Below are positions 4,314-64,000 of a DNA stretch of 64,000 nucleotides, piece by piece; within the stretch, counting starts at the first letter, position 1; each line of letters begins with the position of its first letter. The stretch lies in the NCBI RefSeq assembly GCF_910596095.1, contig NC_056550.1:17764501-17828500 (forward strand). The letters run 5' to 3'. The translations under genes were made by a program, and so were the position numbers. Source of the stretch: Thunnus maccoyii. Taxonomy: Eukaryota > Chordata > Actinopteri > Scombriformes > Scombridae. The notes beneath the pieces were generated by a model that worked only from the letters and a program-made list of their open reading frames with translations, was not told the DNA's origin and made no database searches.

Positions 4314-35659
<31,346 letters not shown>

Positions 35660-40226: not shown

Positions 40227-43200
40227 CTATGTGCAGATCCGCTTTGTGTCCTGAAAGAGGTTTTGCAGGGTGTAAATCTGAGTGACGGCGACGGTGAGCA
40301 TGACAAGCAGGTTGAGGCAGGACCAGAAGGACACCCGCCACAGGTTATCCTCCAGAAGGTAACGATCCCTCGCCTCAAAGGCCCTCAGTGTTGTCTGCAC
40401 CTGACGACTCTTCTCCAGGAGCTTGTACACAGAGTCTATCCTCGCCTGGGAGAGAAAGACAAGAACAGTACACAGGAGGAGGTGAAGGAGACTGCTAGGA
40501 TGTTGAGAGATCAGAAAGAATGACATGAGATGATTCAGGTGTTGTCTAGAGGGGAATCATAGCTGCAGCAGATGTAATAGCTCTTTATTTTTCCCTCTCA
40601 CCCTGATGTCCTCCAGTTTGTACTCCACCATGTCCTCTGTCATGGTTGCGTCTGCCCACTCATCTCCTCCTGAGCTGCTCCGACTATTAATGTTCACCTC
40701 AAAGAACACCATCTTCACTGACAGTTTACTGAAGCTGTTGTCGAAACACAACCGGTAGTCTCCATCCTCAGTGGGATCCACCCTGCAGGAAGGTATCAAA
40801 TTTTGAGGAGAGGTGGCGACTACCCTTGACACAATCACAGCTGAAAAATAGTGGAGTGTAAACATTTGTTTTTATGAATATCCTGCTGAAAATGGAAAAT
40901 GCAAATAGAATATAAGGTTGGTTTTTGGAAAAGGAGAGGAAGTGCTGATCTGAAATGAGGTCTCTTTCTTTCCAGGTATTCATGTATTATAATTTGGGGG
41001 GATGAAATCATGACTGCTGCCTTAATGCTTGTTTAGAAGTCTTAGTTAATTGGTTTTGATCTAAATAAAGAGTACTGCAGGGATTGAGCATTACATCAAA
41101 AGGAGATGGTTGTTGGAAAGCAATTAGGTGACCTACATATGGATGCCGTCAGATCTCCTGAAGTCAGAGGCCAGTCGGTATCCGCTGGGTGAAATAAGGG
41201 CAAAACCAACATCTAGACCTGAACCAGCTATCACCTGTAAAAGAAACACGGGGATAGAGTTCAGTAATGGAGGATGTACAGACTCTACGTAACACTCATT
41301 CAGCACTCACTCACATTTCCAAAGTTATCTTCACATTTTTATTCCTGACGTGCAGCTCACAGTTCAAGAACTCATTAGACTATCTGGGCAAAGGCTGTTT
41401 TTACATTCAAATTTAAATCTTGATAGTACATTGAACTACAACCTACCTCAAATATTAACCCCACAGTGATAATAATGGGACAGTCTGTGTGTCTGTGTCC
41501 AAAATTCTCTCTGTCAAAAGATGGGTTCAGACACAGTTCAGCAGCCCTGCATTAACTTTCTCAAGGTTTATTTATTTATTTTATCATATCAAGCCTCTGT
41601 GTGAGAGGTTCAATACAAGAAGAATTCAAACTCTCTGGACCAAGGTCAGTCATTAGATCCAACCATGAGCCAGTTTTTTTCAGCATGGTCTATTGGGGGG
41701 GCTGGTGTACAGGCACAGTGAAAACACAGCCTAAAAAGTTATGTTTTGTTTCTTTAAAACTGTTTTAAGGTTATATATGTCATCATCAGATGTCATCATT
41801 TCCATTAATATATGAGGGCTAATAGAGTGACAGCAGCTTATTTTAATACTCATTTGGCAAAAATGACTCATAAACATGAACAAACTTTCTGTTACAGCAC
41901 AGGGAAATGAAAGTGGTTATCCGCCCACAGTAAACAGTGGCCTGCTTCATTTATGATTAAAGCAAAAGGAATAAGTGCTTTTTATTGACACAAATCTCTT
42001 CTGATCAGATAATTTTTTTGTTCAACTTATGCCCTGTGTTATGCATCTTGTAAATTTATAAGATGTTATGAGGTCACTATAGGCTATTTATTGGGATTTG
42101 CATGAGTGTTGTGTTGTGTTGTGCATTATCTACTGTAAATTTATGAAGAGTTAAGTAAATGATCTGCTAAAATCTATAAAAGGGAAAACTTCAGCTTCTG
42201 TTAAGGGGCCAAATATTTTTGCTGGAGGGCCAGATTTGGCCCACAGTTTGCTATTTTTCTGTACCCATGTTCTACACAACCCTGTCATTCTCAGACAGTG
42301 ATTCATACTGTGTAAATGTATACATGATCTTCTGCCTTTTTTGTGGGCTGTAATATTCTCAAAATGTTGTGTCAGAAAGTGCAGCCAGGCATACAGTTCC
42401 ACATCAGGAAGGAGCCTTCGGCCTACAGGCCAGTGGAGCTGTATTTGTCACTGTCTCTTTAGTAAAGGTTTGGGACAAGGCAGCTGATTGATAAATGAGA
42501 CCTCTATGCAGCGGCCTTGGAGCATCATGAGTCAACTGTTCCAGGAAAATCTCCTCTCTGACTCAGCACACAGTGACGTGTCACAGCAGAGCAGCCAGGA
42601 CTGACCAGGGTGCAAAATTAACTTTTTTTGTCCACTGGCCAAATGGCTACTGAATATTCAAAATTTTACCAGCCACTCACCAGCATTACCAGCATTTCAC
42701 TGGTGGCTGGTGCCAATTCTGTGCCCTGACTGTGACGTCACATTAACACAGTCCTGATGACTGTGGTGTGATGGTAGAAGGTGAAACAAGGCAAAGGTCA
42801 CAACTATAAAATGACTGAGCTCAACAATACATTATGAGAGACTTGAGTACAGGTGTGCTTGAAATTTCAGGCTGGCTATATTTAGAGGTATTTCACAAAA
42901 GTACAAAACTGGCAAACAGATGTACTTGTATTTTGCATATTACATTAATTTTAAACTAATTTTGGTGGCCAACATATATTTTGGATGCATTTACAGTGTC
43001 ATCATCTTGTAAATGCATGTTTGTGATAAACCAGGATGCATGTTAAATACTTTTAAAATGTATTTTTGCAGTTTGGATCATTTTTGTTTTTCTACCTGTT
43101 ACACAGGACAGGTGTGTTCTGCAACAACAGCAGTAGTGGATTTCTTATCTCTCTGCATGCAAGACAAAGTCCAAAGCCTACTCACTGGTATTTCAGTTAG

Positions 43201-44441: not shown

Positions 44442-44999
44442 AAATCATTGATTAATGATCCATCAATTGTTAACTAATCAGATATAAACTCATAGTGACA
44501 TTATCATCTCTTAATAATGAATTACAGGAATTAATGATACATTATGCATTAAACCATCATGGAACATGCATAAAGTCTGCATTAAGCACTTGTTTTGAAC
44601 CGTTATTATATTACCAGAAACTCCCATCACTTATAATCTCATATCTGTATCTGTATCTTTTTGTTATGAATACAGCCCAGCAAATTAAATTTTTATCTTG
44701 ATCCCATGATTTACTCATTTCCTGATAACAAACTCTCAGTAACTGATCATGTTTGTGAGACTTGCAGGGATAGTATCGGTGACAGGGTTTAACAATTATG
44801 TAATACTTAATTTATCTTTGCAAGAAAAATTTACTATAAAGTCAGAGGTCAACAACAGAGCTATAGCCCTCATTAGTATGTCACCCTACTGCATGGAGGT
44901 CTAACTTTCTACCATTACATCATGCTTCTCAGGATTTCAGTTCAGTGTATTCAGCCTTGGGCCCCTTTACCCCTGGTAAATGGTTTTGTCTACAAATAG

Positions 45000-45772: not shown

Positions 45773-46759
45773 CAATCATTGTTTAATGATCCATCAATTG
45801 TTAACTAATCAGTTATAAACTCATAGTGACATTATCATCTCTTAATAATGAATTAAAGGAATACATTATGCATTAAATCATCATGGAACATGCATAAAGT
45901 CTGCATTAAGCACGTGTTTTGCACTGTTATTATATTACCAGAAACTCCTATCACTTGTAATCTCATATCTGTATCTGTATCTTTTTGTTATGAATACAGC
46001 CCCATGTACTAGTCTCTATATAAAGCAAGGAATCTCTGTCTGTTTTTATGTATGTATGTAAGTTTGTCCTTCGCATATCTCGAGAACCGTTCATCTGACC
46101 TACTTCATACCTGGCGAGTGGATTGCTGGATTTCTTGTTGTTTTGTTTTCTTCCGCTGTACCTACATTTAAGTACCAGTAAGAACCGGAAAGTATTTTAT
46201 ATGTACGGATTCATACAAGGAAGTTACACCATAAGTTCTGGGAAATTACATGGTAAGTGATGGGAAGTTACACTGTAAAACTCAGGCTGTATTATAAAGT
46301 GTTACCAAATCTTTAGATGTATTATCAAGCCTTGGAGGCTGTCAGAGATGCACCTGCCTGCACAGGGTTAGGGGTTAGGTAACTGCAAACATTAAAATGA
46401 CTTGTGCAGTCCCAATCAAAACATGCCTGTTTCGAACGGGTCGATTTCTCAATACCTAGAGAAAGTTGTGCCCATCCCCTAAATGCCTCTCATGCAGACT
46501 ATCTGTAGATAGTCTGATAGTCTAGATATCGTAGTATAGTAGATATCAGCAGTAAAACGTGGGCTGTATTATAAAGTGTTACCAAGATTTGGTAACAAAG
46601 ACAAGATATAATTCGTTCCCACGCTTATGATCATGGAGATAAGGCAACAAATCCCCCCCAGCCCATGTTTTACATACCAGCAGGGACATTCATTGTTTTT
46701 TTAGTAATTTTAAACTTATATCACTGTCATTTTTATCTGAGATCATAGCCCACATGAAG

Positions 46760-47510
46760 CCCACTACATGCAGCCTTGATGCTATTTCCACAAAATTGTT
46801 GACATAGTTGGCGCCAGTATTTTATTGATTATCAACAGTTCCCTTGAAAATGGACTTTTTCCTTCTACTTTTAAACATGCTGTGGTGCAACCTCTTTTAA
46901 AGAAACCTAACCTCGATCCCTCTGTTTTTAATATTTTTAGACCAATTTCTAAACTTCCCTTTTTAAGCAAAGTTTTAGGAAAAGTGGTCTCAACCCAACT
47001 TTTAGCTTTTATGTGTCAAAACGACATCTTTGAGAAATTTCGGTCAGGTTTTAGAGCTTTACATAGCACAGAAACTGCCCTCCTCAAGCTAACTAATGAC
47101 CTCCTTTTAGCAGCTGACAGGGGGAGAGCTCAATTTTAATTCTTTTAGATCTAAGTGCAGCTTTTGACACAGTAGACAACACTATTTTAGTTGACCGTCT
47201 TAAGACCTCGGTGGGCATCAAGGACACTGCACTTGATTGGTTTTATTCTTACCTTTTAGAAGAACCTTCTCGGTCACCATTGGTAACTTCACTTCTTCCA
47301 CAACCCACATTACCAGTGGCGTACTGCAAGGTTCTATTTTAGGTCCAATTTTATTTTCCATCTACATGCTTCCACTTGGCCAAATCATTCAATGACACAA
47401 GGTTTCTTTTCATTGTTATGCAGACGACACACAGATATACCTTCCTCTGAGACACGGTGATCCAAGAGGCCTAGCTGCTGTTGTGGATTGTCTCATGAGA
47501 TGCTACTTTT
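46760..47510 (+). pseudogene. LINE reverse-transcriptase fragment (CR1/L2/Rex-like), frameshifted
   Basis: Successive frames read RPISKLPFLSKVLGKVVSTQ, then FRSGFRALHSTETALLKLTN, then [20 protein letters not shown], then [20 protein letters not shown] and YADDTQIYLPL (active-site YADD at 47417-47428). These are the ordered motifs of non-LTR reverse transcriptase. The frame changes after about 47135 and again in the next 150 bases, so it cannot make an active enzyme. No endonuclease or 3' tail was found; it is a 5'- and 3'-truncated copy. Confidence 0.85.
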
Positions 47511-47728: not shown

Positions 47729-49907
47729 AATAATATGTTATTCCAACCGGACTGCTGGATCATATTTCATTCTCTCACCGACACTAAACAATATCCACAC
47801 ACTAACGCAGCCCCTTATTGTTCTACAAAGGACTGTTTTCAGCAAGGGCGACCCATAAGGGCTGTTTTATTACAAACAATTCCACCGCAGAAACCTGGAA
47901 TCTATGTGTAACAGTTGACCTCTTTATATACAGTCAATGATGATCAATTGTGTAGATGTGCAGAACATAGAACATTAATTACCGTCAGATCCCGACCGAT
48001 CCTTTTGATGAAGTTACCGCTGCTGTGCCACGTGCGTAAACGCGCACATCACTCTCTCAATTTAAAGACGCACTTATCGTTTCAGCTGCCGTGTGATGCT
48101 GCAGGTCTTTAATAAAGTCAAAGGAAAGAATCTGAACATCAACAAACAGTACATCAGTGCTGATGTTTCCACGAAATCCTGGATACATTCAGTGACACCT
48201 GAACGACATCAATGTAAAATTCAGACCTGCCTTAGTCATATTAACAGCTGTAGCCTATTCTGGCGGACATTTAAGTAGATTATGACATAGATGTGAAATA
48301 CTAGAGAAGTAAAATAAGCAAAATACATGGAAGTTGGTTTGTGATTGTGGAGAGCTCTGTGTGTGCACACCTCTGCTAATTAAAGCCACGCAATTTGAGG
48401 CTTTTGTGCTCTCTGCTGTTTTCATGGACCAATCTGTGTGCTGTGTGGAGAAAAGCCTTAAACACTGCAAACAGCAACTTTACTGTCCGTAATACAACCA
48501 TGGCCTGTATGCCCCTTGACCCTCTACTTCCGGCGCCAGTGGAAAAATAAAATGTTGACTTCTGTGTTAATCAAATGATAAAATTGATCACACAAAGTAA
48601 TTAATCAATGTTACCATAATAAATGCACCTTTGATTGGCATTTTACAAATCTGTGTAAACAAAAAACAATCACACAATGAGTGCAGCTGGTTATCAACAT
48701 AAACAAACAATGTTTTACTGAAAGATTTCGTCTCTTAGCTTATATTTAATCTCCACCTCATCACATCACCCTCAGACTGCTTTAGAAAAACATGTGTACA
48801 CCTGGTCTGAAGAATGGGTGAGGTGCGCACATTCTCACCACACATTCTGCTTTTATAAACACCAGTTTATGTGCGGGGAATGGCGTATGCATGGTTTATG
48901 TTCATATACATCATTTATATATCTGGCCCCAGGTGTTGTTTTCAGCCGTTTCAATGAAGGTAAACACGGTGAACGAATGTGCATAACGGCACTGTGCTCT
49001 GGTGCAGCATCTCAGATGCTGCAGATTTATCAACATATCAGTGTTGCTGCTTTGAGATGCTGCAGGGATTTAATGAACTGAATGAGAAGCTTTTCATACA
49101 GTATAAAGCAGCTGTGGACAGCAGATACTGTAAGAATCACCCACTGGGTGGAGGATGTCCACTCAATACAGATGCTCCATACATATGTATATATATTTGC
49201 CCATGTCCCCTTAGGGTTCTCCATATGATGGAGTTATGGTGTGACTTTTAAAAAACAAAAGCAGGCCCACACTCACTCGTCTTTACACTCACACTAATGT
49301 ATGAGATCTTGCTCAAGTTTAGTCAAGCAGAGGCATCGGTGAATAAAAGTACTCTTGTGACAGAAACAAAAGTGACATTTACTACATCATATGAATGATT
49401 GTTTTTCTCCAAAAACTGCTGACAGGGAAAGAAATTCACTATTATGGGGAAGAAAGTGGAGTGGAGACAGAGAAGTACATTAAAGTCCAGCCTATTTACA
49501 CAGAACTCCACTGACATCCCCAGGGGGGCAGGGGCAAGACTTGATGTTCCATGATGATGGATGGTCAGATGCTTTCACTGCATATCTGACTCAGTTTCCT
49601 GTCCTTGTCCTTTTTAAAATACATTACAATTACAATTAAATCATCATGGAATATGCATAAAGTCTGCATTAAACATGTGTTTTGCACCATTATTATATTA
49701 CCAGAAACTCCTATCACTTATAATCTCATGTTTGTATATTTTTGTTATGAATACAGCTCAGCAAATTAAATTATTATCTTGATCCCATGATTTACTCATT
49801 TCCTGATAACAAAACCCTCAGTAACTGATCATGTTAGTGAGAATTGCTGGGACAGTATCGGTGACAGGGTTTAACTATCTAAATTATGTAATACTTGGTT
49901 TATCTTT

Positions 49908-50113
49908 GCAGGAAAAATCTACTGGAAGGTCAGAAGTCAACAACAGAGCAAAAGCCCTCCTTAGTACGCCACCCTGCTGCTTGGAGGTCTAATTTTCTAC
50001 CATCACATCATGCTTCTCAGGTTTTCAATTCAGTGTATTCAGCCTTAGGCCCTTTTACCCCTGATCTGGTCCTACCCTACAATCATGCTGTCACAACTCA
50101 TCATCCATGTTAG
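49908..50113 (+). other. Candidate upstream exon or relic shared by the duplication units
   Basis: After TCTTTGCAG a frame reads KNLLEGQKSTTEQKPSLVRH and continues SNFLPSHHASQVFNSVYSAL, GPFTPDLVLPYNHAVTTH. The equivalent frame is open in unit C (59250-59470) and broken in the degenerate copy at 44820-44985. I do not recognise the protein and see no clear partner exon. It may be an exon of a lost neighbour or simply repeat sequence. Confidence 0.2.
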
Positions 50114-50778
50114 TATTTGAACATAAAGTATTTTGAAATAACTTATTTTTTTCCATGTTCACTTCCATCTATCACACAAACACACTATTGATTTCAGAGG
50201 TGAATATACTCTCTTGAATATTTTTCTAAAAATATGATCGTGATCTGATCCAGAGTAATATGTATAGTATTTACACCCTCAATTCATTTAACAAACTGAA
50301 GGAGCATACATTATTCTAAACAAATCACTAACTCTCACCGTACCACGGTGGTGGTGCACTTGTTGGTGTCAGACCATGAGACAAGCCGCTAAGCAAGAAC
50401 ATGAGAGAGAGGAAGTGTGAATGGATATTTCAACATTGCTATTACAATGACGTGGGAGGGCGTGAAGGGGAGGTTAAATGCATTGTGCTCACCCACTTGG
50501 TAATTGTCGTCTTTTACTTTGAGGCTTCGTAACTGATGGTCAGGTTCTGTAGCTGCACCAGAAAAATTTGCATCAGGTACAGCATCATTTTAATATTTGC
50601 AGTTATCGTGTGCAGGCAAGTGCATCTCTGACAGCCTCCAAAGGGGCTTTACTGATGCATCTCAGGATTTCTATATCTGACTCTGAGCTTTGTCCCCAGT
50701 GAAGTGACACTCGTTGACAACTTCTGGAGCATATTTCCACACTGATTCATTTTCAGTTACAGAAAGAGCGCTGTTGAT

Positions 50779-52612
50779 ATGGCTGAGGATGGGTATCCTT
50801 TTGTAAACTCGATGGACAGCCATGCCACCTGTCCTCCAGTACCACCCAGGCTAAGCCAGGGGCAACGGTGTGCCAGGGTGGGACAGAAAGTGCTGTTCAT
50901 CCTGGTGAGCGTGGTATTATGCAGCATGATCGTAGAGGCCTGTCTCATCTACCATCTCTACCAAATTGAATCTGTGAGTATCAATCAGTATCAGTGCTTC
51001 TTTTTTGTTTAATTAAATTTTCCTTTACAACCCCTTTTTACTCTCACTTTCCTCATCACCTTTAACTGCTATTCTCACTTTCAGTTTTCCTCTTTTTCTT
51101 TTTAGTAGTTTTCTCTTACTTGTATTCTGTCACTATTAACCGAAAACTGCTGTTCATTGATAACACCTTTAAAATTCCTTTAAACGCTAGTCTTAAATAT
51201 TTATAACAGGAATTCCTCTAGTTGTCTCAGTAACATCTTATATTCATAATGTAATATTTATGTTAAAATGTAATTACTTGGAGTGAGTCAAATATGTACT
51301 AATCAAACTAAGGTAACATCTCAAGACAAAAATAATAAAATACAAAAATGAGTGACCTCAGTACATTAAAAAAGTTTCATGAAATAATATAAAAGCAGCA
51401 CATTTCATGTAAAGGTGATTAGTGATTCAGCAAACAAAAATACTATACAAACAGGGGATGGTGGAGAAAAAGAAGTGGTGTATTTCCTGTAGCATGATTG
51501 TGATCTACCTTTTATAGATTACCAAAAACATCCACCTGTCCTACTTTGCTCTGCACACAGTGTGGTCCTTACACACAATTCAGATCTTATAATGTTTGTT
51601 AAAATCTGCTCACATACAGATCATAGTTGGGTTTTTTTGTTTTTTTACTTTTTTCATCTTATTTTCTTAACGTGCATATGCACCAATGGTGATTGCATTC
51701 ACATCTGCATGTGCATGCTCACAAACAAAAAATAAACAAGCACAACTGTGAGGTGAACTGCTTTTATTTTCATTGCAGGTCACCTCAGCATCAATCTCTA
51801 AGATCATCACAGGTATGTGTCAGCAGTTTTGCACTTAAATTTAAATAAAATTTTAATTGATAAATATTTTCAATTACTTTATGCACATTAGAGACATGTC
51901 TATGTCTGGTCTTCATACAGAACAAGATGTTGCTGCCACCAAACGGCCCAGTCCTGTTATTTCTCCTTCCAAACCAGTTGCACATCTGACAGGTGAGGGC
52001 AGCGCTGATGTCCCAACCAATACCATGGTGTTAAATGTATTACCAAAGCAGAAAATAAATCAAAATACATTGTCATTTGCTTGTAAAATGAAGGCACATT
52101 CTCAAAGTGCTGGTGGTAATCATGTGGTTTATTTGTCATTTTTGAAGCCTCAAAATTTAAAAAAAAAATATCAGACTTCATATTGTCAGTGTTGTCTTCT
52201 CTCTTTCTTTCTTTCAGATGGACAAGACGTAGTTCATGCAAAAGACATTATGGCATGGAGCACAGATGCAGACCCTCTCCTCTATGAAATAGACTACAAA
52301 GACAGAAGTCTTGTCATTCAGAAGGAGGGGTATTACTATGTCTACTCCAAAGTTTCCTTCTCAGACAACGATGTATTTCATCATCTTGTTGAATTGCGTA
52401 CTGAAAAGTATACTGGGAAAAGTATTAACCTCTTGAAGTCCAGGAAATATTCCAATCTTTCCAAACATTCCTCTTACAAACAATCCAACAGTTACTTGGG
52501 TGGAGTGTTTCACCTCTCCAAAGGTGATGCCATTTTTGTGAAAGTGAGCAACACCTCAAAAATCGTGCGACAGAAACCGTCTGATAATGTCTTTGGTGCA
52601 TATACGATATGA
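50779..52612 (+). CDS. tnfsf14: TNFSF14 (LIGHT)/FasL-like TNF superfamily ligand, copy A
   Basis: Exons 50779-50973, 51779-51812, 51921-51992, 52218-52612; phases agree, 696 nt, 231 aa. A type II membrane cytokine: cytoplasmic residues 1-36 with a proline-rich PPVPPR (19-24), membrane segment about 38-60 (VLFILVSVVLCSMIVEAC), a short stalk, and a TNF homology domain from about 95 (PVAHLT) to the end. Typical strands are present: LVIQKEGYYYVYSKVSF, SYLGGVFHLSKGD and the C-terminal VFGAYTI. The domain lacks cysteines. Such ligands form trimers that engage TNF receptors on lymphoid and other cells. VAHLTG, GYYYxYSKV and FGAF/Y resemble LIGHT most, with FasL the next candidate; location beside dnm2/tmed1 (19p13-like) favours the TNFSF14 group. 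Polyadenylation signals follow at 52658-52667. Confidence 0.88.
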
Positions 52613-53774
52613 ATATCATACTAATATTTCACCAGAAATCCTAAAAATTGGAGTAAGAATAAATAAAATTGGATAAGAAATCATATAACATCTTTTTTTG
52701 AGGACTAATGGTTCTCTTTGTAATGAAAAGGTAAACACAACCAGATTGGAGTGAAAACCTGGAAGTGTTAAGAAGGTCAGGACTGCTGACTCTTCAGTTT
52801 CTAAATTGTGTTTGACAGTATAACAAAATTCATTTTTTACATCAGGGACTTTTTACATGATACCTTATATACTAACTTTACACTTAATCTTTTGTGTGTT
52901 ACGAACTGACACATCATAGATGGATATTTTGAAGATGACTTATACTGCTTAGTTGGATCTTCATATTTGTGCTGAGTTTAATTGCATGCATCATGTTGCA
53001 AACCAGTCTCACATCAAAATGTATAGTAGCTATGTTGGTCCACAGTGCAAAACATATTAGTTTCAGATGCTTATGTTTCTTTAGCCTATTCTTTTCTACT
53101 GGCCTGCATCCACAGTGCAAGTGGCTAGTTTCTGTCTGCAAAAACAAACAAAATGGCTGAAATTCCTTTTATACTCAGGGGAAATGCATTATTTTAGGAT
53201 AGCTTCAGCATTGAAATTCCTTTTAATGACATTTCTAGTGAGAAATGTGCATTTTATTTTCATAATCTTTGTTCAGGGAATGTATATGATTTTTAGTTTG
53301 TTAGTTATTATGAAGGTTGTTTCAGGTCTTGCCAGAAAACCGTAGGAATGCAATGTTTCCGACCGTTGCTATGGTGGTTGCTATGGACCCTGCTGTCGCT
53401 GAAACCATGTCGTTGCATGTTGTGTGAATCATTGTCTTTGCGTTGTCTTGTTATTTGAGCTGTTATGTTATTTGTGTTATTTTATGTAACTGTTTGATTA
53501 TGTTATTTCAATAAAAAAACAAAAAAACATAGAGTTTAGAGTGGAGAAATGAACTGAGTTTGAAATCCAGAATTTGAAGCTTTGCGACCAGAGGACTTGC
53601 CGCCTGTAAGTATTTTCCTCACTGTCAATGTGTCAAAGTTTTCTTTTAATGATATCATTCATCATCAACATTTATCAACACAAAAACACAAAAGTGTCCT
53701 TGATAAGTCAACGATATGATAGGTTAATGTTAGGGCCATCAGTTTTAGTTATTTCCCCTTTTTCTCTACAGCGT

Positions 53775-54240
53775 TGATTTGCTTCTTCTTCTTCCTGTGA
53801 AGTTAACGATTGGAAATATGGACAGCGCCATCTGCCATTGCAATCCATATTGTGGTCGGAGATGGGATTACATCTGTAGTGATAATGACTTGAAAAAACT
53901 TCAGAAATTTAAGCTCTTCTATTGAACTGTGTGCTATGAAGGAAACTTGGCTTGTACGTTCAAGACTTAGTGCTGGATGTCACAGTCACGTTCAGAGATA
54001 TATATAAAAATACCTCATATACAACGTTGCTTCTGGTTCTTCTTCTGCAGATGGATTCAACCGACATTGTGTCGGAGGTGGGATTACACCCGTAGTGATA
54101 AGAACTACCATAGAGAATGAATTGAAAAAGCTTAGAGAGTTTAGCTCCATTCCTGTTCCTCATGCATGGGAACTTTGTATGTATGTTCAAGACATAGTGC
54201 AGGATGTCTCAGGGATGTTTTGAACGGGCAGTACAGTTCA
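53775..54240. repeat. Internally duplicated repeat downstream of copy A
   Basis: Two related halves, each with a TTCTTCTTC tract, a GTGTCGGAGGTGGGATTACA-like core and a GTTCAAGAC.TAGTGC.GGATGTC tail. The same pair follows copy C (63200-63707), and fragments occur at 45200 and 54735. It behaves as a dispersed repeat rather than a gene. Confidence 0.6.
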
Positions 54241-54279
54241 TCCGATCAATTTTCGCTCAGGTCAAAATTGTAGTTTCCA

Positions 54280-54800
54280 GATATTCTGCGTGTGAGGCAT
54301 TTAGGGAGCATCAGTAAATTGTACCATCTACCGATAGCCTGCATATGAGGCATATACGGAACATGGGTTAATTATAGCGTCTACTGTTAGCCTGTGTGTG
54401 AGGCATTTATGGAACATGGGTAAATTGTAGTGTCTACTGATAGCCTACATGAGAGGCATTCAGGGGACGGGCACAACTCTTTCTAGGTATTGAGAAATCG
54501 GCCCGTTCCGAACAGGCACGTTTTGAATGGGCACTGCACTAATCTCTCTATATAAAGCAAGGAATCGCTGTCTGTCTGTATATAAGTTTGTCCTTATATA
54601 TCTCGAGAACCATTCATCCGATCTATTTCATACCAGGCAGGTGGATTGCTGGGGAAACAAGGAAGTGCAATGTTGATGTGTGAAGTTGTTTGGATGAGCG
54701 GTTTCGAAAATTATTCAAAAATACCTAATAAATAATGTTGATTTGCTTCTTCTTCTGCCAGTGGAGTCAACAAATGGAAATACGGATGGCACCACTCTAC
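54280..54800. repeat. Minisatellite and Helitron-like repeat, second locus
   Basis: Three to four units of the 55-60 base repeat described at 45000 (with TAAATTGTA and GCATTTA cores) run to about 54470. They are followed by GGCCCGTTCCGAACAGGC, TCTCTATATAAAGCAAGGAA and TATCTCGAGAACC.TTCATC, then a fragment of the TTCTTCTTCTGCC repeat. Class uncertain. Confidence 0.45.
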
Positions 54801-56153
54801 CATGGCAACCCACATTAAAATGTAGGCTAGTTGTCTCCCCTGAATATTAATGTTGATTATTATTCTGTATTATATCATTAAAAAGGTCTCGTTATTGATC
54901 ACGAATAGAAGCCATTCAGAAGGCGGTAATTTGGTGCCTGTACCAAACAAGAAGCATTCTTATCAATTGTTCCAACGGAAAACAAGAGCAGCCAACCAAG
55001 GAAAAAGTCTGAGGCTACTGGAAAAAAGCAGGAGGATATGTATCCATAGCTAAGGTGTTCAATAGAATATTGGCATTTTTGCTTGTTCTGTGCCCTTTTG
55101 CTGATATGATATGATTGTTGTTGTTTTATGATGCTATCCAGTTGATTAAACAATCAGACATGCAGCGGTAAAATAAAATAGCCAAGTCAAAGGTCCACAG
55201 GGGTTTTGGTTGGGGAGTTTATGGGTCCTCCCCCAAGAAAATTTGATGTCATTTGACTAAAAACTATGCATTTTCGCACAATTTTGGACTATTATCATTA
55301 CAATATTTAAAGAAAAAAAAAAAAAAAACGCACTGTGTGCCATAAAATATAATAATCACAACACATTGGTAAAACAGGCTTATAGTGAATGGATTTGAAC
55401 TGCGATTTTCTCATCCTCCCATCCTCCCAAGCTGTAGCCGCTAGAGATCCCAGTATTTGTATTTGTATCTGTATTTGTTGAGGCAGAAAAATTATTTGTA
55501 TCTGTGTTTGTATTCGAATAAAAGTGGAAAGAGGCTTAAAAATCCTGTTTTTGTTTTTATTACACTTTTAATTTTAGAAAACTATTATGATTACTGAGCT
55601 AAAACTTTACTCATCGCCTCATTGCAGCCAGACCTATCTATTTGAACACCCATAACACGGAGACAACACACTGTGTAACGTGTAGGGAGGAACTTCAAAG
55701 GCAATTGCTGCTTTGCACTTTTCATTTATTGCCTATTTTTTACAACTTAACTTTGTGGAAAGGAGAAGGGGAACAACAGGTTATGGAGAGTCTTTAAGAG
55801 CACTTTGCTTGTGTCAGTAGCTCAACTTTATCTCTGGGGAATACCCCCAACAAATAATTTTTAAAATATTTGTATGAAACAAATACTCGTATAACTATTT
55901 GTGCTTTGCGGAATAATGTATTTGTATTCAGGTACACCCCTAGTAGCCACTAGCCAGTTGTAGGGACAGCTATGGATAGAATTTAACTTATCCACAAACA
56001 ATTTATTTGTCCCATTTTGCACATATCACGGAGATACAACAGACTGCATTGATGCCATCTCAACACCTTTTATTTCCTTGTTGGAATAAAAGACACACAT
56101 CAGACTTTATGACCCAACTGATAAAGATTTATACTGTCTGTTAATATCTGACA
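54801..56153. other. Intergenic stretch, possible transposon debris
   Basis: AT-rich. Around 55455-55560 and 55860-55935 there are runs of TATTTGTATT-type repeats (GTATTTGTATCTGTATTTG, GTATTCGAATAAA) that look like parts of one non-autonomous element about 480 bases long, but I could not define its ends. No coding exon was seen. Confidence 0.35.
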
Positions 56154-56672
56154 ATGTTACCTGTTTGTGCCTGGCAAAAGTATGTGAACCCCTAAGATTA
56201 CCAATTCATTAGAGGGGGAAATTAGAGTTGGGTGTTGCAATTAATGGGATGACAATCAAGTGTGAGTCTGTGAGGCCCTGCCTTATTTAAAGAAGATAAA
56301 TCTGGGTCTTCACTGTCAAACTCTGAGCTTCACAACACAGGTTTGTGGAAGTGTGTCATGGCTCAAACAAAGGAGATTTCTGAGGACAAAGAAGAGTTGT
56401 TGATGCTCACCAAGCTGGAAAGGGTTACAAGACCATTTCTGAAGAGTTTGGACTCCACCAGTCGGCTGTCAGACAGATCATATACAAATTGAAGACATCC
56501 AACACCATTGTTGAAAAAGATGAAAACAATGATTTTTTTGGTCTCATTTGTTTAATTGGATTCACTTTGTTTAGTTTTAGGACTTGTGTAAATATCTGAT
56601 CATGTTTTAGGTCATATTTATGCAGAAATACAGAAAATTCTAAAGGGTTCACAAACTTTCAAACAACACTGT
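56154..56672 (+). mobile_element. Internally deleted Tc1-like transposon
   Basis: The left part has GCAAAAGTATGTGAACCCC and the right end GGGTTCACAAACTTTCAAAC ... CACTGTA, the inverted ends typical of fish Tc1 elements. At 56359 the transposase start MAQTKEISEDK is followed, after a frameshift, by GKGYKTISEEFGLHQSAVRQ and IIYKLK: the N-terminal paired-type helix-turn-helix. The catalytic DDE domain is absent. The right end abuts the start of the truncated ligand unit B. Confidence 0.8.
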
Positions 56673-57111
56673 ATATATTTTTTTGCCCATGTCCCCTTAG
56701 GGGCTCCATATGATGGCATTATGGTGTGACTTCTAAAAAACTATTTTTAATATTGGGAGACAAAAGCAGGCCCACACTCACTCCTCTTTACACTCACACG
56801 AATGTGTGAGATCTTGCTCAGGTTTAGTGAAACAGAGGCATCAGTGAATAAAAGTACTTTCGTGACAGAAACAAAACTGACATTTACTACATCATATGAA
56901 TGATTGTTTTTCTCCAAAAACTGCTTACAGGGAAAGAAATTCACTATTATGGGGAAGAAAGTGGAGTAGAGAAAGAGAAGTACATTAAAGTCTGGCCTAT
57001 TTACACAGAACTCCACTGACATCCCCAGGGGGGCACGGACAAGACTTGATGTTCCATGATGATGGATGTCAGATGCTTTCACTGCATATCTGACTCAGTT
57101 TCCTGTCCTTG
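56673..57111. repeat. Left part of truncated duplication unit B
   Basis: Matches 49187-49607 upstream of ligand copy A (for example GCCCATGTCCCCTTAGG, CATATGAATGATTGTTTTTC). At 57112 the match stops and, after about 39 unrelated bases, resumes at the equivalent of 51505 inside copy A intron 1. Confidence 0.8.
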
Positions 57112-57437
57112 TGTGGTGTTCCGCGTGATGGCAGCAGTCACGGGGTGTACCTACCTTTTACAGATTACCAAAAGCACAGACCTGTCCTACTTGCTCTGCA
57201 CACAGTGGTCCTTACACACGATTCAGATCTTATAATGTGGAGAATTTTGTTAAAATCTGCTCACATGCAGATCATAGTTTTTTTTGTTTTGTTTTTTTAA
57301 TTTAAGCTTTTGTCATCTTATTTTCTCAACTTGCATATCCACCAATGGTGATTGCATCTGCATCTGCATCTGCGTGCTCACAAACAAAAAATAAACAAGC
57401 ACAACTGTGAGGTGAACTGTTTTTATTTCCATTGCAG

Positions 57438-58248
57438 GTCACCTTAGCATCATCCTCTAAGATCATCACAGGTATGTGTCAGCACTTTTGCACTTTAATT
57501 TATATTCAATTTTAATTGACAAATACTTTCAATTACTTTATGCACATTAGAGACATGTTTATGTCTGGTCCTCACACAGAAAAAAAATTGCACAGTCCTG
57601 TTATTTCTCCTTCTAAACCGGTTGCACATCTGACAGGTGAGGGCAGCACTGATAACCCATCCAATACCATACTGTTAAATGTATTACCAAAGCAGAAAAT
57701 AAGTCAAAATTGTCATATCTTTTGCTTGTAAAAATGAAGGCACATTCTCAAAGTGCAGGGAAGGTAATCATGTGGTATATTTGTCATTTTTGAAGCCTCA
57801 AAATTAAAAAAAATATGTTGTCAGTGTTGTTTTCTCTCTTTCTGTCTTTCCAGATGGATAAGATGTAGTTCATGCAAAAGACATTATGGCATGGAGCTCA
57901 GATGCAGACCCTCTCCTCTATGAAATGGACTACAAAGACAGAAGTTTTGTCATTCAGAAGGAGGGGTATTACGATGTCTACTCCAAAGTTTCCTTCTCAG
58001 ACAACGATGTATTTCATCATCTTGTTGATTTGTGTACTGAAAAGTTTACTGGGAAAAGTGTTACCCTCCTGCATTCCAGGAAATATTCCAATCTTTCCAA
58101 ACATTCCTCTTCCAAACAATCCAACAGTTACCTGGGTGGAGTGTTTCACCTCTCCCAAAGTGATGCCATTTTTGTGAAAGTGAGCAACACCTCAAAAATC
58201 GTGCGACAGAAACCGTCTGAGAATGTCTTTGGTGTATATATGATATGA
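57438..58248 (+). pseudogene. TNFSF14-like ligand, copy B: no exon 1, nonsense codon in last exon
   Basis: Equivalents of exons 2 (57438-57471), 3 (57580-57636) and 4 (57854-58248) are present with intact splice sites. Exon 1, with the start codon and membrane anchor, is missing. The third codon of exon 4, CAA in copies A and C, is TAA here (57859-57861). Exon 3 is 15 bases shorter than in copy A. The rest of exon 4 is open and 395 bases long as in copy A, with replacements such as YYDVYSK for YYYVYSK. Splicing from copy A exon 1 into these exons would still meet the stop. I therefore call it a pseudogene; an internal Met after the stop could not give a membrane ligand. Confidence 0.88.
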
Positions 58249-58953
58249 ATATCATATTAATATTTCACCAGTAATCCTAAAAGTTGGAGTAAGAGTAAAA
58301 AAAATTGGATAAGAAATCATATGGCATCCTTTTTGAGAACTAATGGTTCTCTTTGTAATGAAAAGGCAGATTCACAACCAGATTGGAGTAAAAACCTGGA
58401 AGTGTTAAGAGGGTCAGGACTGCTGACTCTTCAATTTCTAAATTGTGTTTGACAGTATAACAAAATTCATTTTCTCATCAGAGACTTTTTATATGCTACC
58501 TTATATACTTGCTTTGCACTTAATCTTTTGTATGTTACGAACTGACACATCATGGATGGATATTTTGAAGATAACTTTGATATACTGCTTAGTTAGATCT
58601 TTATATTTGTGCTGAGTTTAATCATATGCATCATGTTCATGTTAAAATGTTCAAAAAACACACAAGCTGTATCCTTATACATTTTTTATATCTGAATAAC
58701 ACAATTGCTTTTAATTCTGCTGTCTATGTGCAATAATGCACGCAAAAGAATGAAATAAACAGCTCATGATTTAGATGTGGTTGTTGTTTGTTGGTTTTCT
58801 CAAATGAAATGAACTCCTCTATGCACTTCCTGTTGCATCAAGCGAGACCACACTGGAGCCTTTGCAGAGTGGTCTCAGTATCAGTTGCAGCGAATGTTTC
58901 ACCCACTTGATGCAACAACACCACACATACAGTAGAGAAGGTATTTTTTAAAT
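58249..58953. other. Spacer between copy B and unit C
   Basis: To about 58620 it matches the 3' region of copy A; then it becomes unique, with AATAAA at about 58754-58759 that could have served copy B. No gene seen. Confidence 0.45.
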
Positions 58954-61900
58954 ACATTACAATTACAATTAAATCATCATGGAACATGCATAAAGTCTGC
59001 ATTAAGCACGTGTTTTGCACCGTTATTATATTACCAGAAACTCCTATCACTTGTAATCTCATATCTGTATCTGTATATTTTTGTTATGAATACAGCCCAG
59101 CAAATTAAATTATTATCTTGATCCCATGATTTACTCATTTCCTGATAACAAAACCCTCAGTAACTGATCATGTTTGTGAGAATTAATGGGACAGTATCGG
59201 TGACAGGGTTTAACTATCTAAATTATGTAATACTTAGTTTATCTTTGCAGGAAAAATTTACTGGAAGGTCAGAAGTCAACAACAGAGCAACAGCCCTCCT
59301 TAATACGCCGCCCTGCTGCTTGGAGGTCTAATTTTCTACCATCACATCATGCTTCTCAGGTTTTCAGTTCAGTGTATTCAGCCTTAGGCCCTTTTACCCC
59401 TGATCCGGTCCTACCCTACAATCATGCTGTCACAACTCATTCATCATCCATGTTAGTATTTGAACATAAAGTATTTTGAAATAACTTATTTTTTTCCATG
59501 TTCACTTCCATCTATCACACAAACACACTATTGATTTCAGAGGTGAATATACTCTCTTGAATATTTTTCTAAAAATGTGATTGTGATCTGATCCAGAGTA
59601 ATATGTATAGTATTTACACCCTCAATTCATTTAACAAACTGAAGGAGCATACATTATTCTAAACAAATCACTAACTCTCACCGTACCACGGTGGTGGAGT
59701 ACTTGTTGGTGTCAGACCATGAGACAAGCCGCTAAGCAAGAACATGAGAGAGAGGAAGTGTGAATGGATATTTCAACATTGCTATTACAATGACGTGGGA
59801 GGGCATGAAGGGGAGGTTAAATGCATTGTGCTCACCCACTTGGTAATTGTCGTCTTTTACTTTGAGGCTTCGTAACTGATGGTCAGGTTCTGCAGCTGCA
59901 CCAGAAAAATTTGTATCAAGTACAGCATCATTTTAATGTTTGCAGTTATCGTGTGCAGGCAAGTGCATCTCTGACAGCCTCCAAAGGAGCTTTACTGATG
60001 CATCTCATGATTTCTATATCTGACTCTGAGCTTTGTCTGAGCCATCTCCACTTGAACCAACCACAAGTGAGCCCACCCATTTTGCTACTTTTTCACATCG
60101 TCTGTCACACTGTCTCTTCTGTTTGTCTCTGCAACCCCATTGAAGTGACACTCTTTGACAACTTCTGGAGCATATTTCCATACTGATTCATTTTCAGTTA
60201 CAGAAAGAGCGCTGTTGATATGGCTGAGGATGGGTATCCTTCTGTAAACTTGATGGACAGCCATGCCACCTGTCCTCCAGTACCACCCAGGCTAAGCCAG
60301 GGGCAACAGTGTGCCAGGGTGGGGCAGAAAGCGCTGTTCATCCTGGTGAGCGTGGCATTATGCGGCATGATCGTAGAGGCCTGTCTCATCCACCGTCTCT
60401 ACCAAACTGAATGTGTGAGTATCAATCAGTATCAGTGCTTCTTTTTTGTTGAATTAAATTTTCTTTTGCAACCCCTTTTTACTCTCACTTTCCTCATCAC
60501 CTTTAACTGCTATTCTCACTTTCAGTTTTCCTCTTTTTCTTTTTAGTAGTTTTCTCTTTCTTGTGTTCTGTCACTATTAACCCAAAACTGCTGTTTATTG
60601 ATAACACCTTTAAAATTCCTTTAAACGCTAGTCTTAAATATTTATAACAGGAATTCCTCTAGTTGTCCCAGTAACATCTTATATTCATAATGTAATATTT
60701 ATGTTAAAATGTAATTATTTGGAGTGAGTCAAATATGTACTAATCAAACTAAGGTAAAATCTCAAGACAAAAATAGTAAAATACAAAAATGAGTTACCTC
60801 AGTACATTAAAAAAGTTTCATGAAATAATATAAAAGCAGCACATTTCATGTAAAGGTGATTAGTGATTCAGCAAACAAAAATACTATACAAACATGGGAC
60901 GGTGGAGAAAAAGAAGTGGTGTATTTCCTGTAGCATGATTGTGATCTACCTTTTATAGATTACCAAAAACACCCACCTGTCCTACTTTGCTCTGCACACA
61001 GTGTGGTCCTTACACACAATTCAGATCTTATAATGTTTGTTAAAATCTGCTCACATACAGATCATAGTTGGGTTTTTTTGTTTTTTTACTTTTTATGTCT
61101 TGTTTTCTCAACTTGCATATCCACCAATGGTGATTGCATTCACATCTGCATGTGCATGCTCACAAACAAAAAATAAACAAGCACAACTGTAAGGTGAACT
61201 GCTTTTATTTTCATTGCAGGTCACCTCAGCATCAGTCTCTAAGATCATTGCAGGTATATGTCAGCACTTTTGCACTCAATTTTAATTGATAACTACTTTC
61301 AATTACTTTATGCACATTAGAGACATGTCTTTGTCTGGTCCTCACACAGAACAAGATGCTGCTACTGCCGCTAAATTGCACAGTCCTGTTATTTCTCCTT
61401 TCAAACCACTTGCACATCTGACAGGTGAGAGCAGCACTGATGTCCAATCCAATACCATGGTGTTAAATGTATTACCAAAGCAGAAAATAAATTAAAATAC
61501 ATTGTCATAGCTTTTGCTTGTAAAATGAAGGCACATTCTCAAAGTGGTGGTGGTAATCATGTGGTTTATTTGTCATTTTTGAAGCCTCAAAATTTAAAAA
61601 AAAAAATCAGACTTCATATTGTCGGTGTTTTCCTCTCTCTTTCTTTCTTTCAGATGGACAAGATGTAGTTCATGCAAAAGACATTATGGCATGGAGCACA
61701 GATGCAGACCCTCCCCTCTATAAAATAGACTACAAAGACAGAAGTCTTGTCATTCAGAAGGAGGGGTATTACTATGTCTACTCCAAAGTTTCCTTCTCAG
61801 ACACCGGTATATTTCATCATCGTGTTGATTTGCGTACTGTAAAGTTTACTGGGAAAAGTATTAACCTCTTGAAGTCCAGGAAATATTCCAATCATTTCAA

Positions 61901-63707
61901 ACACCCCGAACAATCCAACAGTTACCTGGGTGGAGTGTTTCACCTCTCCAGAGATGATGCCATTTTTGTGAAAGTGAGCAACACCTCAAAAATCGTGCGA
62001 CAGGACCTCTCTGAGAATGTCTTTGGTGCATATATGATATGAATATCATATTAATATTTTACCAGGAATTCTAAAAATTGGAGTAAGAATAAATAAAATT
62101 GGATAAGAAATCATATAACATCTTTTTTGAGGACTAATGGTTCTCTTTTAATGAAAAGGTAAACACAACCAGATTGGAGTGAAAACCTGGAAGTGTTAAG
62201 AAGGTCAGGACTGCTGACTCTTCAGTTTCTAAATTGTGTTTGACAGTATAACAAAATTCATTTTTTACATCAGGGACTTTTTACATGATACCTTATATAC
62301 TAACTTTACACTTAATCTTTTGTGTGTTACAAACTGACATATCATGGATGGATATTTTGAAGATGACTTATACTGCTTAGTTGGATCTTCATATTTGTGC
62401 TGAGTTTAATTGCATGCATCATGTTGCAAACCAGTCTCACATCAAAATGTATAGTAGCTATGTTAGTCCACAGTGCAAAACATATTAGTTTCAGATGCTT
62501 ACGTTTCTTTGGCCTATTCTTTTCTACTGGCCTGCATCCACAGTGCAAGTGGCCAGTTCCTGTCTGCAAAAACAAACCAAATGGCTGAAATTCCTTTTAT
62601 ACTCAGGGGAAATGCAATATTTTAGGATAGTTTCAGCACTGAAATTCCTTTTAATGACATTTCTAGTGAGAAATGTGCATTTTATTTTCATAATCTTTGT
62701 TCAGGGAATGTATATGATTTTAGGTTTGTTAGTTATTATGCAATTATTTCAGGTCTTGCCAGAAAACCGTAGGAATGCAATGTTTCCGACCGTTGCTATG
62801 GTGGTTGCTATGGACCCTGCTGTCGCTGAAACCATGTCGTTGCATGTTGTTTGAATCATTGTCTTTGCATTGTGTTGTTATTTGAGCTGTTATGTTATTT
62901 GTGTTATTTTATGTAACTGTTTGATTATGTTATTTCAATAAAAAAAACAAAAAAAACATAGAGTTTAGAGTGGAGAAATGAACTGAGTTTGAAATCCAGA
63001 ATTTGAAGCTTTGCAACCAGAGGACTTGCCGCCTGTAAGTATTTTCCTCACTGTCAACGTGTCAAAGCTTTCTTTTAATGATATCATTCATCATCAACAT
63101 TTATCAACACAAAAACACAAAAGTGTCCTTGATAAGTCAACAATATGATAGGTTAATGTTAGGGCCATCAGTTTTAGTTATTTCCCCTTTTTCTCTACAG
63201 CGTTGATTTGCTTCTTCTTCTTCCTGTGAAGTTAACAATTGGAAATATGGACAGCGCCATCTGCCATTGCAATCCATATTGTGGTTGGAGATGGGATTAC
63301 ATCTGTAGTGATAATGACTTGAAAAAACTTTAGAAATTTAAGCTCTTCTATTGAACTGTGTGCTATGAAGGAAACTTGGCTTGTACGTTCAAGACTTAGT
63401 GCTGGATGTCACAGTCACGTTCAGAGATATATATAAAAATACCTCATAAACAACGTTGCTTCTGGTTCTTCTTCTGCACATGGATTCAACAGCGGAAATA
63501 CGGACAACGCCATTCTGCCACTGCAACCCACATTGTGTCGGAGGTGGGATTATACCCGTAGTGATAAGAACTACCATAGAGAATGAATTGAAAAAGCTTA
63601 GAGAGTTTAGCTCCATTCCGGTTCCTCATGCATGGGAACTTTGTATGTATGTTCAAGACATAGTGCAGGATGTCTCAGGGATGTTTTGAACGGGCAGTAC
63701 AGTGCAT
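58954..63707. repeat. Duplication unit C carrying a TNFSF14-like gene
   Basis: Counterpart of 49621-54240. It begins ACATTACAATTACAATTAAA and runs past the gene to GATGTTTTGAACGGGCAGTA. Compared with unit A it retains about 90 extra bases in the 5' leader (about 60033-60140). Confidence 0.85.
60220..62042 (+). CDS. tnfsf14: TNFSF14 (LIGHT)/FasL-like TNF superfamily ligand, copy C
   Basis: Exons 60220-60414, 61220-61253, 61350-61424, 61654-62042; phases agree, 693 nt, 230 aa. Architecture as in copy A: proline-rich PPVPPR, membrane segment ALFILVSVALCGMIVEAC, and TNF homology domain with PLAHLT, LVIQKEGYYYVYSKVSF, SYLGGVFHLSRDD and VFGAYMI. It is intact, with no stop or frameshift. Against copy A it has a codon more in exon 3, two codons fewer in exon 4 and about thirty amino-acid differences, clustered in likely receptor-facing loops of the domain. 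Polyadenylation signal at 62088-62093. Same family caveat as copy A. Confidence 0.88.
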
Positions 63708-64000
63708 CCGATCAACTTCATCGATCAACATGTTGCTTTGTTGACTGCATTGGTGGAATGAACAAAATGCCAGAAGAAAGAAATAAGAGTATTTATCAAT
63801 ACAAAAATTTGTATGTAGTTACGCAAGTAAAATGGAGGGAAAAAGAGCTGAGAGCACTGTGAAAAACATAGGAAAACCAGGAAGTCTAATGCTGAAATTG
63901 TGAAAATGTGCATTCAAATGTAGGACTAAACTGGCATTAAAAACAGACACACACAAACGCCGCCCAAGAACACCTCAATGCCCAACTTTCAAAAATATTG
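62049..64000. other. Region downstream of copy C
   Basis: Up to about 63707 this repeats the sequence downstream of copy A, including an AATAAA followed by A-rich tracts at 62936-62957 and the internally duplicated repeat at 63200-63707. The last 290 bases are not part of the duplication and show no recognisable gene. Confidence 0.5.

Follow-up and report, generated by a model that had tools for sequence, protein, structure and literature searches.

Divergence of exons and introns between two tandem TNF-ligand genes of Thunnus maccoyii: a probable mosaic of conversion or exchange with CpG-driven change in exon 1

Why should the exons of two neighboring genes differ from each other more than their introns do? 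The question is raised by a stretch of 64,000 nucleotides from Thunnus maccoyii (assembly GCF_910596095.1, contig NC_056550.1, positions 17,764,501 to 17,828,500 of the forward strand; the whole stretch is called the window below, and positions are counted from its first letter). Three tandem TNF ligand units lie at the end of the window, two of them intact (copies A and C) and the one between them dead (B). A first-pass annotation had put the A/C divergence at roughly 5-7% in exons and about 3% in introns, with most exon differences being replacements, and had suggested either diversifying selection or gene conversion that homogenized introns only. The answer that we consider probable is that the array is a mosaic produced by conversion or exchange, to which CpG-driven change in exon 1 and receptor-facing replacements that were tolerated or favored would have been added. 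All comparisons of copies were made within this one window, among A, B and C only.

The raw contrast was reproduced when the A/C differences were counted part by part. Substitutions per aligned site were 33/1167 in the 5' flank, 11/195 in exon 1, 23/805 in intron 1, 3/34 in exon 2, 8/96 in intron 2, 8/72 in exon 3, 9/224 in intron 3, 24/389 (plus one 6-base gap) in exon 4 and 39/1635 in the 3' flank, i.e. 46/690 over all exons compared with 40/1125 over all introns (p=0.003) or 112/3927 over all noncoding sequence (p=3.5e-6). Replacements account for ~38.5 of the 46 coding differences, and the two proteins differ by 37 amino acid replacements and by 3 residues in indels. The recount of exon 1 was identical to the annotation, with 10 of the 11 differences changing the amino acid, and the 23 differences in intron 1 fall within the 20-25 claimed. 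Exon 4 does have the 6-base deletion and a replacement-heavy pattern, although the earlier counts were slightly low (24 substitutions, 20 of them replacements and 4 silent, rather than ~21 and ~3). The changes cluster at residues 151-165, 181-188, 202-203 and 220-223 of copy A, as had been reported, and residues 121, 124 and 230 are changed too.

However, the claim that exons diverge faster than introns is confounded by a divergent block that takes in introns 2 and 3, and by CpG sites in exon 1. Introns 2 and 3 together have 17/320 substitutions (5.3%), compared with 95/3607 (2.6%) in the other noncoding sequence (p=0.012); because these introns are also raised, the contrast with intron 1 fails for the introns that lie among exons 2-4. 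In a single-segment scan of the 4617 aligned A/C sites, the best segment began in the last part of intron 1 and ended shortly after the stop codon (Table 1), with 64/968 differences (6.6%) in this core and 94/3649 (2.6%) outside it, and its log-likelihood ratio was reached in 0 of 200 permutations. Within the core, exon and noncoding sites are raised alike (35/495 and 29/473, p=0.61), and the same exon count set against introns 2-3 gives p=0.38. Silent divergence in exons 2-4 (6.5 changes in ~109 sites) is of the same order as that of the core, and exon 4 is more diverged than the 3' flank (p=0.0005), as the block predicts.

Unit B served as the reference for three-copy counts, which were limited to the part of A with homology to B (51507-52990). 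In the homologous flanks (644 sites) there were 6 A-unique, 9 C-unique and 47 B-unique sites, i.e. A and C are closest, and in the core (784 sites) there was a near three-way split of 15 A-unique, 33 C-unique and 34 B-unique sites, with C and B long. The B-unique share of the sites unique to a single copy shifts from 47/62 in the flanks to 34/82 in the core (p=4e-5), and this shift is still seen when only the noncoding core is counted (15/32, p=0.006). A test for gene conversion tracts, as the first-pass annotation had proposed, showed that the longest run of A=C against B lies just past the gene (20 variable sites, 52647-52896; Sawyer-type permutation P=0.0001, or 0.0017 when restricted to noncoding sites); in the same permutation neither the longest A=B run (P=0.16) nor the longest B=C run (P=0.30) was significant. 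Both marks of a gene-conversion mosaic were found: the copy relationships disagree between regions, and there is a shared run that is significant. This is the pattern that would be expected if the flanks of A and C, but not the core, had recently been reset by ectopic gene conversion or by unequal exchange between units. Of the two original suggestions, conversion is better supported than selection, but it is the flanks and most of intron 1 that appear homogenized, and not the introns as such.

An imported core would look similar. By this alternative route a diverged core would have been brought into one copy, more likely C, from a paralogue or allele beyond the window, and the flanks would reflect the native duplication. 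The excess of C-unique over A-unique sites in the core (33 against 15, p=0.013) would fit such an import, and the extra pieces of 5' flank at 44548-44975 and 45872-46002 point to additional units, either present or lost. However, no donor was found within the window by tblastn, and stretches free of A/C substitutions adjoin both sides of the core (Table 1), as homogenization of the flanks predicts. We regard an imported core as possible but unlikely.

Exon 1 lies outside the core, and its 11/195 differences compare with 56/1972 in the 5' flank and intron 1 (p=0.047) or with intron 1 alone (p=0.075). CpG sites hold 5 of these 11 differences and make up 14 of the 195 aligned bases in exon 1, compared with 8 of 805 in intron 1; at non-CpG sites exon 1 (6/181) and intron 1 (20/797) are similar (p=0.61). 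The extra divergence of exon 1 is largely fast CpG change, and the idea of exon 1 as an independently selected exon was weakened by these counts. A context model with flank rates predicted 6.4 changes in exon 1 (P=0.061 for at least 11) and 4.2 replacements against the 10 observed (P=0.011), and the replacement probability by other yardsticks was 0.019 (all-noncoding rates), 0.085 (intron 1) or 0.52 (core-intron rates). The contrast between exons and introns is mostly the result of a mosaic boundary and CpG change, beyond which a modest excess of replacements remains.

A second layer, which we infer for the core, concerns where these replacements fall. The paper on the human LIGHT-HVEM complex (PMC8558838), in its available text, names 15 LIGHT contact residues and cites Rooney 2000 for the report that the change Y173F in LIGHT diminishes HVEM binding significantly. 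Y165 of A was placed opposite LIGHT Y173 in 8/8 alignments, and C and B have Phe at this position; N151-D152-V153 of A was placed opposite LIGHT A159-S160-T161 in 8/8 alignments, and these residues are Thr-Gly-Ile in C, with B keeping Asn-Asp-Val. Changed positions, among which the two deleted codons as well as positions 93 and 96 are counted here, made up 5/13 of the contact-homologous positions compared with 16-17 of 113-123 others in 6/8 alignments (p 0.037-0.049), and 7/14 (p~0.002) in the 2/8 alignments restricted to A, LIGHT and FasL. LIGHT V152 was unpaired in 8/8 alignments and V196 in 6/8, which left 13 or 14 of the 15 contacts for the test. A majority mapping with the deleted codons left out gave 5/13 compared with 15/123 (p=0.025; exon 4 only, 0.017). 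This enrichment is suggestive only, as the alignment of the EF loop is uncertain, the contacts are those of human LIGHT with HVEM, and surface loops vary anyway. K220 (Asp in C) was not counted as a contact: HMMER (4kg8) pairs it with R228 of LIGHT, but 8/8 MAFFT alignments put Q219 there. Core replacements at receptor-facing positions may have been tolerated or favored, more so on the lineage of C, and because of these replacements A and C may differ in receptor binding. It is plausible, although unproven, that the receptor surface of C has shifted.

Several points weigh against this combination of a mosaic, CpG change and a receptor-facing layer. Outside the core, and without a correction for CpG, exon 1 (11/195) exceeds the noncoding sequence (83/3454, p=0.016). 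The scan picks its own edges, which favors the noncoding total of the block; introns 2 and 3 were therefore tested alone, and their 320 sites are a small noncoding sample of the core. The long A=C run in part mirrors the raised A/C divergence of the core. A two-rate neutral context model, with separate flank and core rates, expected 23.9 replacements compared with ~38.5 observed (P~0.03; exon 1 P=0.013, core P~0.1), so that mosaic and CpG leave a remainder. For the selective layer, the split of replacement to silent changes is 7:2 in A, 19:3 in C and 16:3 in the pseudogene B, i.e. the split in C is what a dead copy shows. The clustering of replacements in exon 4 was significant with the two deleted codons (P=0.013) and not without them (P=0.12), and was dropped as support; as a control, the clustering of noncoding differences in three stretches was not significant (P 0.47, 0.13 and 0.35).

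The likeness between C and B raises the possibility that C (or both A and C) is drifting unconstrained and becoming a pseudogene like B, in which case its share of replacements would be neutral. Besides the similar split, the core exons diverge at about the rate of the introns, the Pfam TNF score of C (71.9) is nearer to that of B (68.3) than to that of A (83.3), and C has Phe at the position of the DE-loop tyrosine. However, both reading frames are intact where 0.7-1.8 stop changes would be expected under neutrality, which is weak evidence; the two coding indels (3 and 6 bases) are both in frame, compared with 2 of 11 noncoding indels that are multiples of three (Fisher one-sided p=0.077); and in anchored blocks replacements hit the framework in 2/9 cases in C but 5/7 in B (p=0.13). 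The first two of these observations weakly suggest that A and C retain function, and drift is in our view an unlikely account. A stronger version of the receptor-facing layer would make C a re-targeted ligand, marked by the Phe opposite LIGHT Y173 and by new residues in the CD and EF loops, with selection holding the cores of A and C apart against an ongoing conversion that homogenizes the rest, i.e. a conversion-resistant specificity module; we put this forward tentatively, and doubt it.

Diversifying selection alone would make A and C recent duplicates, with 2.6% neutral divergence, in which coding divergence had been raised to 6-11% and introns 2-3 were high by chance or by hitchhiking. Pairwise maximum likelihood with the codon model of Goldman and Yang (GY94) gave an omega of 2.29 for all exons (p=0.033), 5.2 for exon 1 (p=0.057), 1.73 for exons 2-4 (p=0.22) and 1.91 for exon 4 (p=0.23), in four overlapping and uncorrected tests under a model that is blind to CpG. 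The flank-rate context model expected 13.7 replacements compared with 38.5 observed (P=1.7e-8), and the enrichment at contact-homologous positions would also fit. However, silent sites and introns 2-3 rise together with the exons, and selection on the protein cannot raise those; selection as the sole cause was rejected as the main reading on this ground. In addition, Nei-Gojobori counting (NG86; dS 0.051, dN 0.076, omega 1.49) gave a Fisher p of 0.27 and a bootstrap P(dN<=dS) of 0.13, the core replacements (28.5) were close to the 21.9 expected at core-intron rates (P=0.083), and the share of replacements is the same in pseudogene B. Neither estimate of dN/dS was below 1, and intron divergence (3.6%) did not exceed dS (5.1%), so that the outcome with which the first-pass annotation would have withdrawn its proposal did not appear. 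The remaining selection signal on A and C is borderline, and we think it improbable that selection acted by itself. It is very improbable that A and C are merely two haplotypes of one gene wrongly placed in tandem by the assembly, with an allelic core difference, for although a flank divergence of 2-3% is possible in a very heterozygous animal, the two copies are separated by a distinct unit B, whose breakpoints are its own, ~98 bases 5' of exon 1 of C are absent in A, and the window is without N.

Table 1. Positions in the window of the three TNF-ligand units, their exons and the A/C divergence blocks
Feature	Position	Strand	Detail or basis
Tandem unit A (5' flank, four exons, 3' flank)	49611..54249	+	three pieces 95.5-97.9% identical to 58944-63715
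Copy A exon 1	50779..50973	+	putative cytoplasmic tail, membrane anchor and stalk start; 65 codons; predicted helix 27-72
A/C substitution-free stretch, 5' side of core	51532..51653	+	122 nt
A/C divergent core, intron 1 end to just past stop, exon and intron alike	51654..52640	+	block scan
Copy A exon 2	51779..51812	+	
Copy A exon 3	51921..51992	+	
Copy A exon 4	52218..52612	+	TNF domain, stop; Pfam TNF match of whole protein
A/C substitution-free stretch, 3' side of core	52641..52902	+	262 nt; candidate homogenized tract
Unit B, pseudogene	56760..58637	+	block like 49255-49608, then intron 1 end, exons 2-4
Pseudogene B exon 2	57438..57471	+	
Pseudogene B exon 3	57580..57636	+	57 bases, 72 in A
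Pseudogene B exon 4	57854..58248	+	in-frame TAA as second full codon
Tandem unit C	58944..63715	+	identity to unit A
Copy C exon 1	60220..60414	+	
Copy C exon 2	61220..61253	+	
Copy C exon 3	61350..61424	+	one codon longer than A
Copy C exon 4	61654..62042	+	TNF domain; 6-base in-frame deletion relative to A and B

A and C each have four exons with GT/AG borders and a frame that is open to the stop, and encode 231 and 230 residues, respectively. A tblastn search of the window with A and C found no exon 1 of unit B, and exon 4 of B contains the TAA; unit B is therefore a pseudogene. The sequence at 49255-49608, before unit A, is 94.9% identical to 56760-57112, which in B adjoins the end of intron 1 (57151 onward), and this junction is consistent with a deletion having removed exon 1 of B. 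The ~98 bases of C that are absent from unit A lie at 60037-60135 and are a possible regulatory difference. Neither of the two extra copies of the 5' flank has a gene found adjoining it, and the second, at 45872-46002, is 98.5% identical to the flank of C and 89.9% to that of A.

The TNF domain (PF00229) was matched by the whole proteins of A (7.3e-23, 81.3 bits) and C (2.5e-19, 69.9 bits) well above the cutoff of 23 bits. For both, the solved structure that matched best was 4zch_A, a multi-domain TNFSF13 chain, with FasL and LIGHT next; copy A ranks FasL (6.7e-12) slightly ahead of LIGHT (6.7e-11), and copy C ranks LIGHT (1.2e-9) slightly ahead of FasL (1.4e-8). For this reason A and C likely belong to the LIGHT/FasL group, with LIGHT itself not proved. 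Neighboring stretches encode dynamin, TGT and p24/GOLD domains, which we take to be DNM2, QTRT1 and TMED1; their human location is presumably 19p13, which would favor TNFSF14. No cysteine was found after residue 55 in A or after residue 65 in C, so that neither TNF domain has the disulfide pair of LIGHT, which we take to be C154-C187. Codon 65 at the end of exon 1 (60412-60414 in C) is Ser in A and Cys in C, and A has no cysteine there. A structure model of A predicted an N-terminal helix at residues 27-72, with a block-mean predicted local distance difference test (pLDDT) score >90 at residues 31-60, and this helix is a candidate type II membrane anchor N-terminal to the TNF domain. The TNF domain itself failed in the single-sequence model of full-length A (pLDDT <50 from residue 68), and a domain-only model with three alignment rows was poor (mean pLDDT 49.5, predicted template modeling score 0.48).

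Other features of the window were also noted. A weak TNF-domain-like reading with an internal stop lies at 42262-42460 (+), between pieces of a p24/TMED-like gene; its tblastn E value was 0.087 over 13.5 kb and 0.84 and 0.48 over the whole window, and it is possibly an old TNF-ligand relic or a chance match. Likely transposon pieces lie at 20037-20492 and 46780-47136; the matches were to a BED zinc finger (6e-10) and, below the cut-off of Pfam, to a reverse transcriptase. A scan of viral contigs with exon 1, in which related records from the genome of the window may be left out, gave 17 pattern matches, of which 0 were confirmed.

The array has implications for how such loci are read. If the receptor surface of C is indeed shifted, A and C would be a near-identical natural ligand pair for dissecting the receptor specificity of LIGHT-like ligands. 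The array also gives a reason for caution, in that a comparison of exons with a single intron can mimic positive selection where there is a mosaic boundary and the exons are rich in CpG. Among the open-access matches listed, none dealt with conversion, or with the divergence of exons and introns, in arrays of this kind; 'gene conversion' and 'positive selection' have 0 occurrences in the main text of PMC11762692, and PMC7674686 was not checked for these terms.

Duplication of TNFSF14 in fishes is already described. According to the available text of PMC7674686 and PMC11762692, genes of the TNFSF6/TNFSF14 groups tend to duplicate in fishes, and Callorhinchus has four tandem FASL genes, one of which is most likely a pseudogene; the present array is similar in its tendency to duplicate and in its tandem genes with a dead member. 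Copy A resembles human LIGHT in its complex with HVEM (PDB 4RSU; PMC8558838, available text) in that the two can be aligned across the TNF domain, with a Tyr of A opposite Y173. Unlike human LIGHT, A and C are without a cysteine in the TNF domain and have a CD loop that is 7 residues shorter, and C has the Phe opposite Y173 together with altered CD- and EF-loop residues. The accelerated exons of primate segmental duplications, as presented in the available part of PMC3906575, are likewise coding exons that are more diverged than their flanking introns, and they are enriched in duplicated genes; here, however, the excess of exons 2-4 is gone when they are compared with the introns between them, and that of exon 1 is largely CpG. 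Interlocus gene conversion in teleosts (PMC10503786) has likewise homogenized fish duplicates, but the accessible text of that work treats genome-duplication pairs by codon models, whereas the present case is a tandem array in which the core would have been either spared or foreign.

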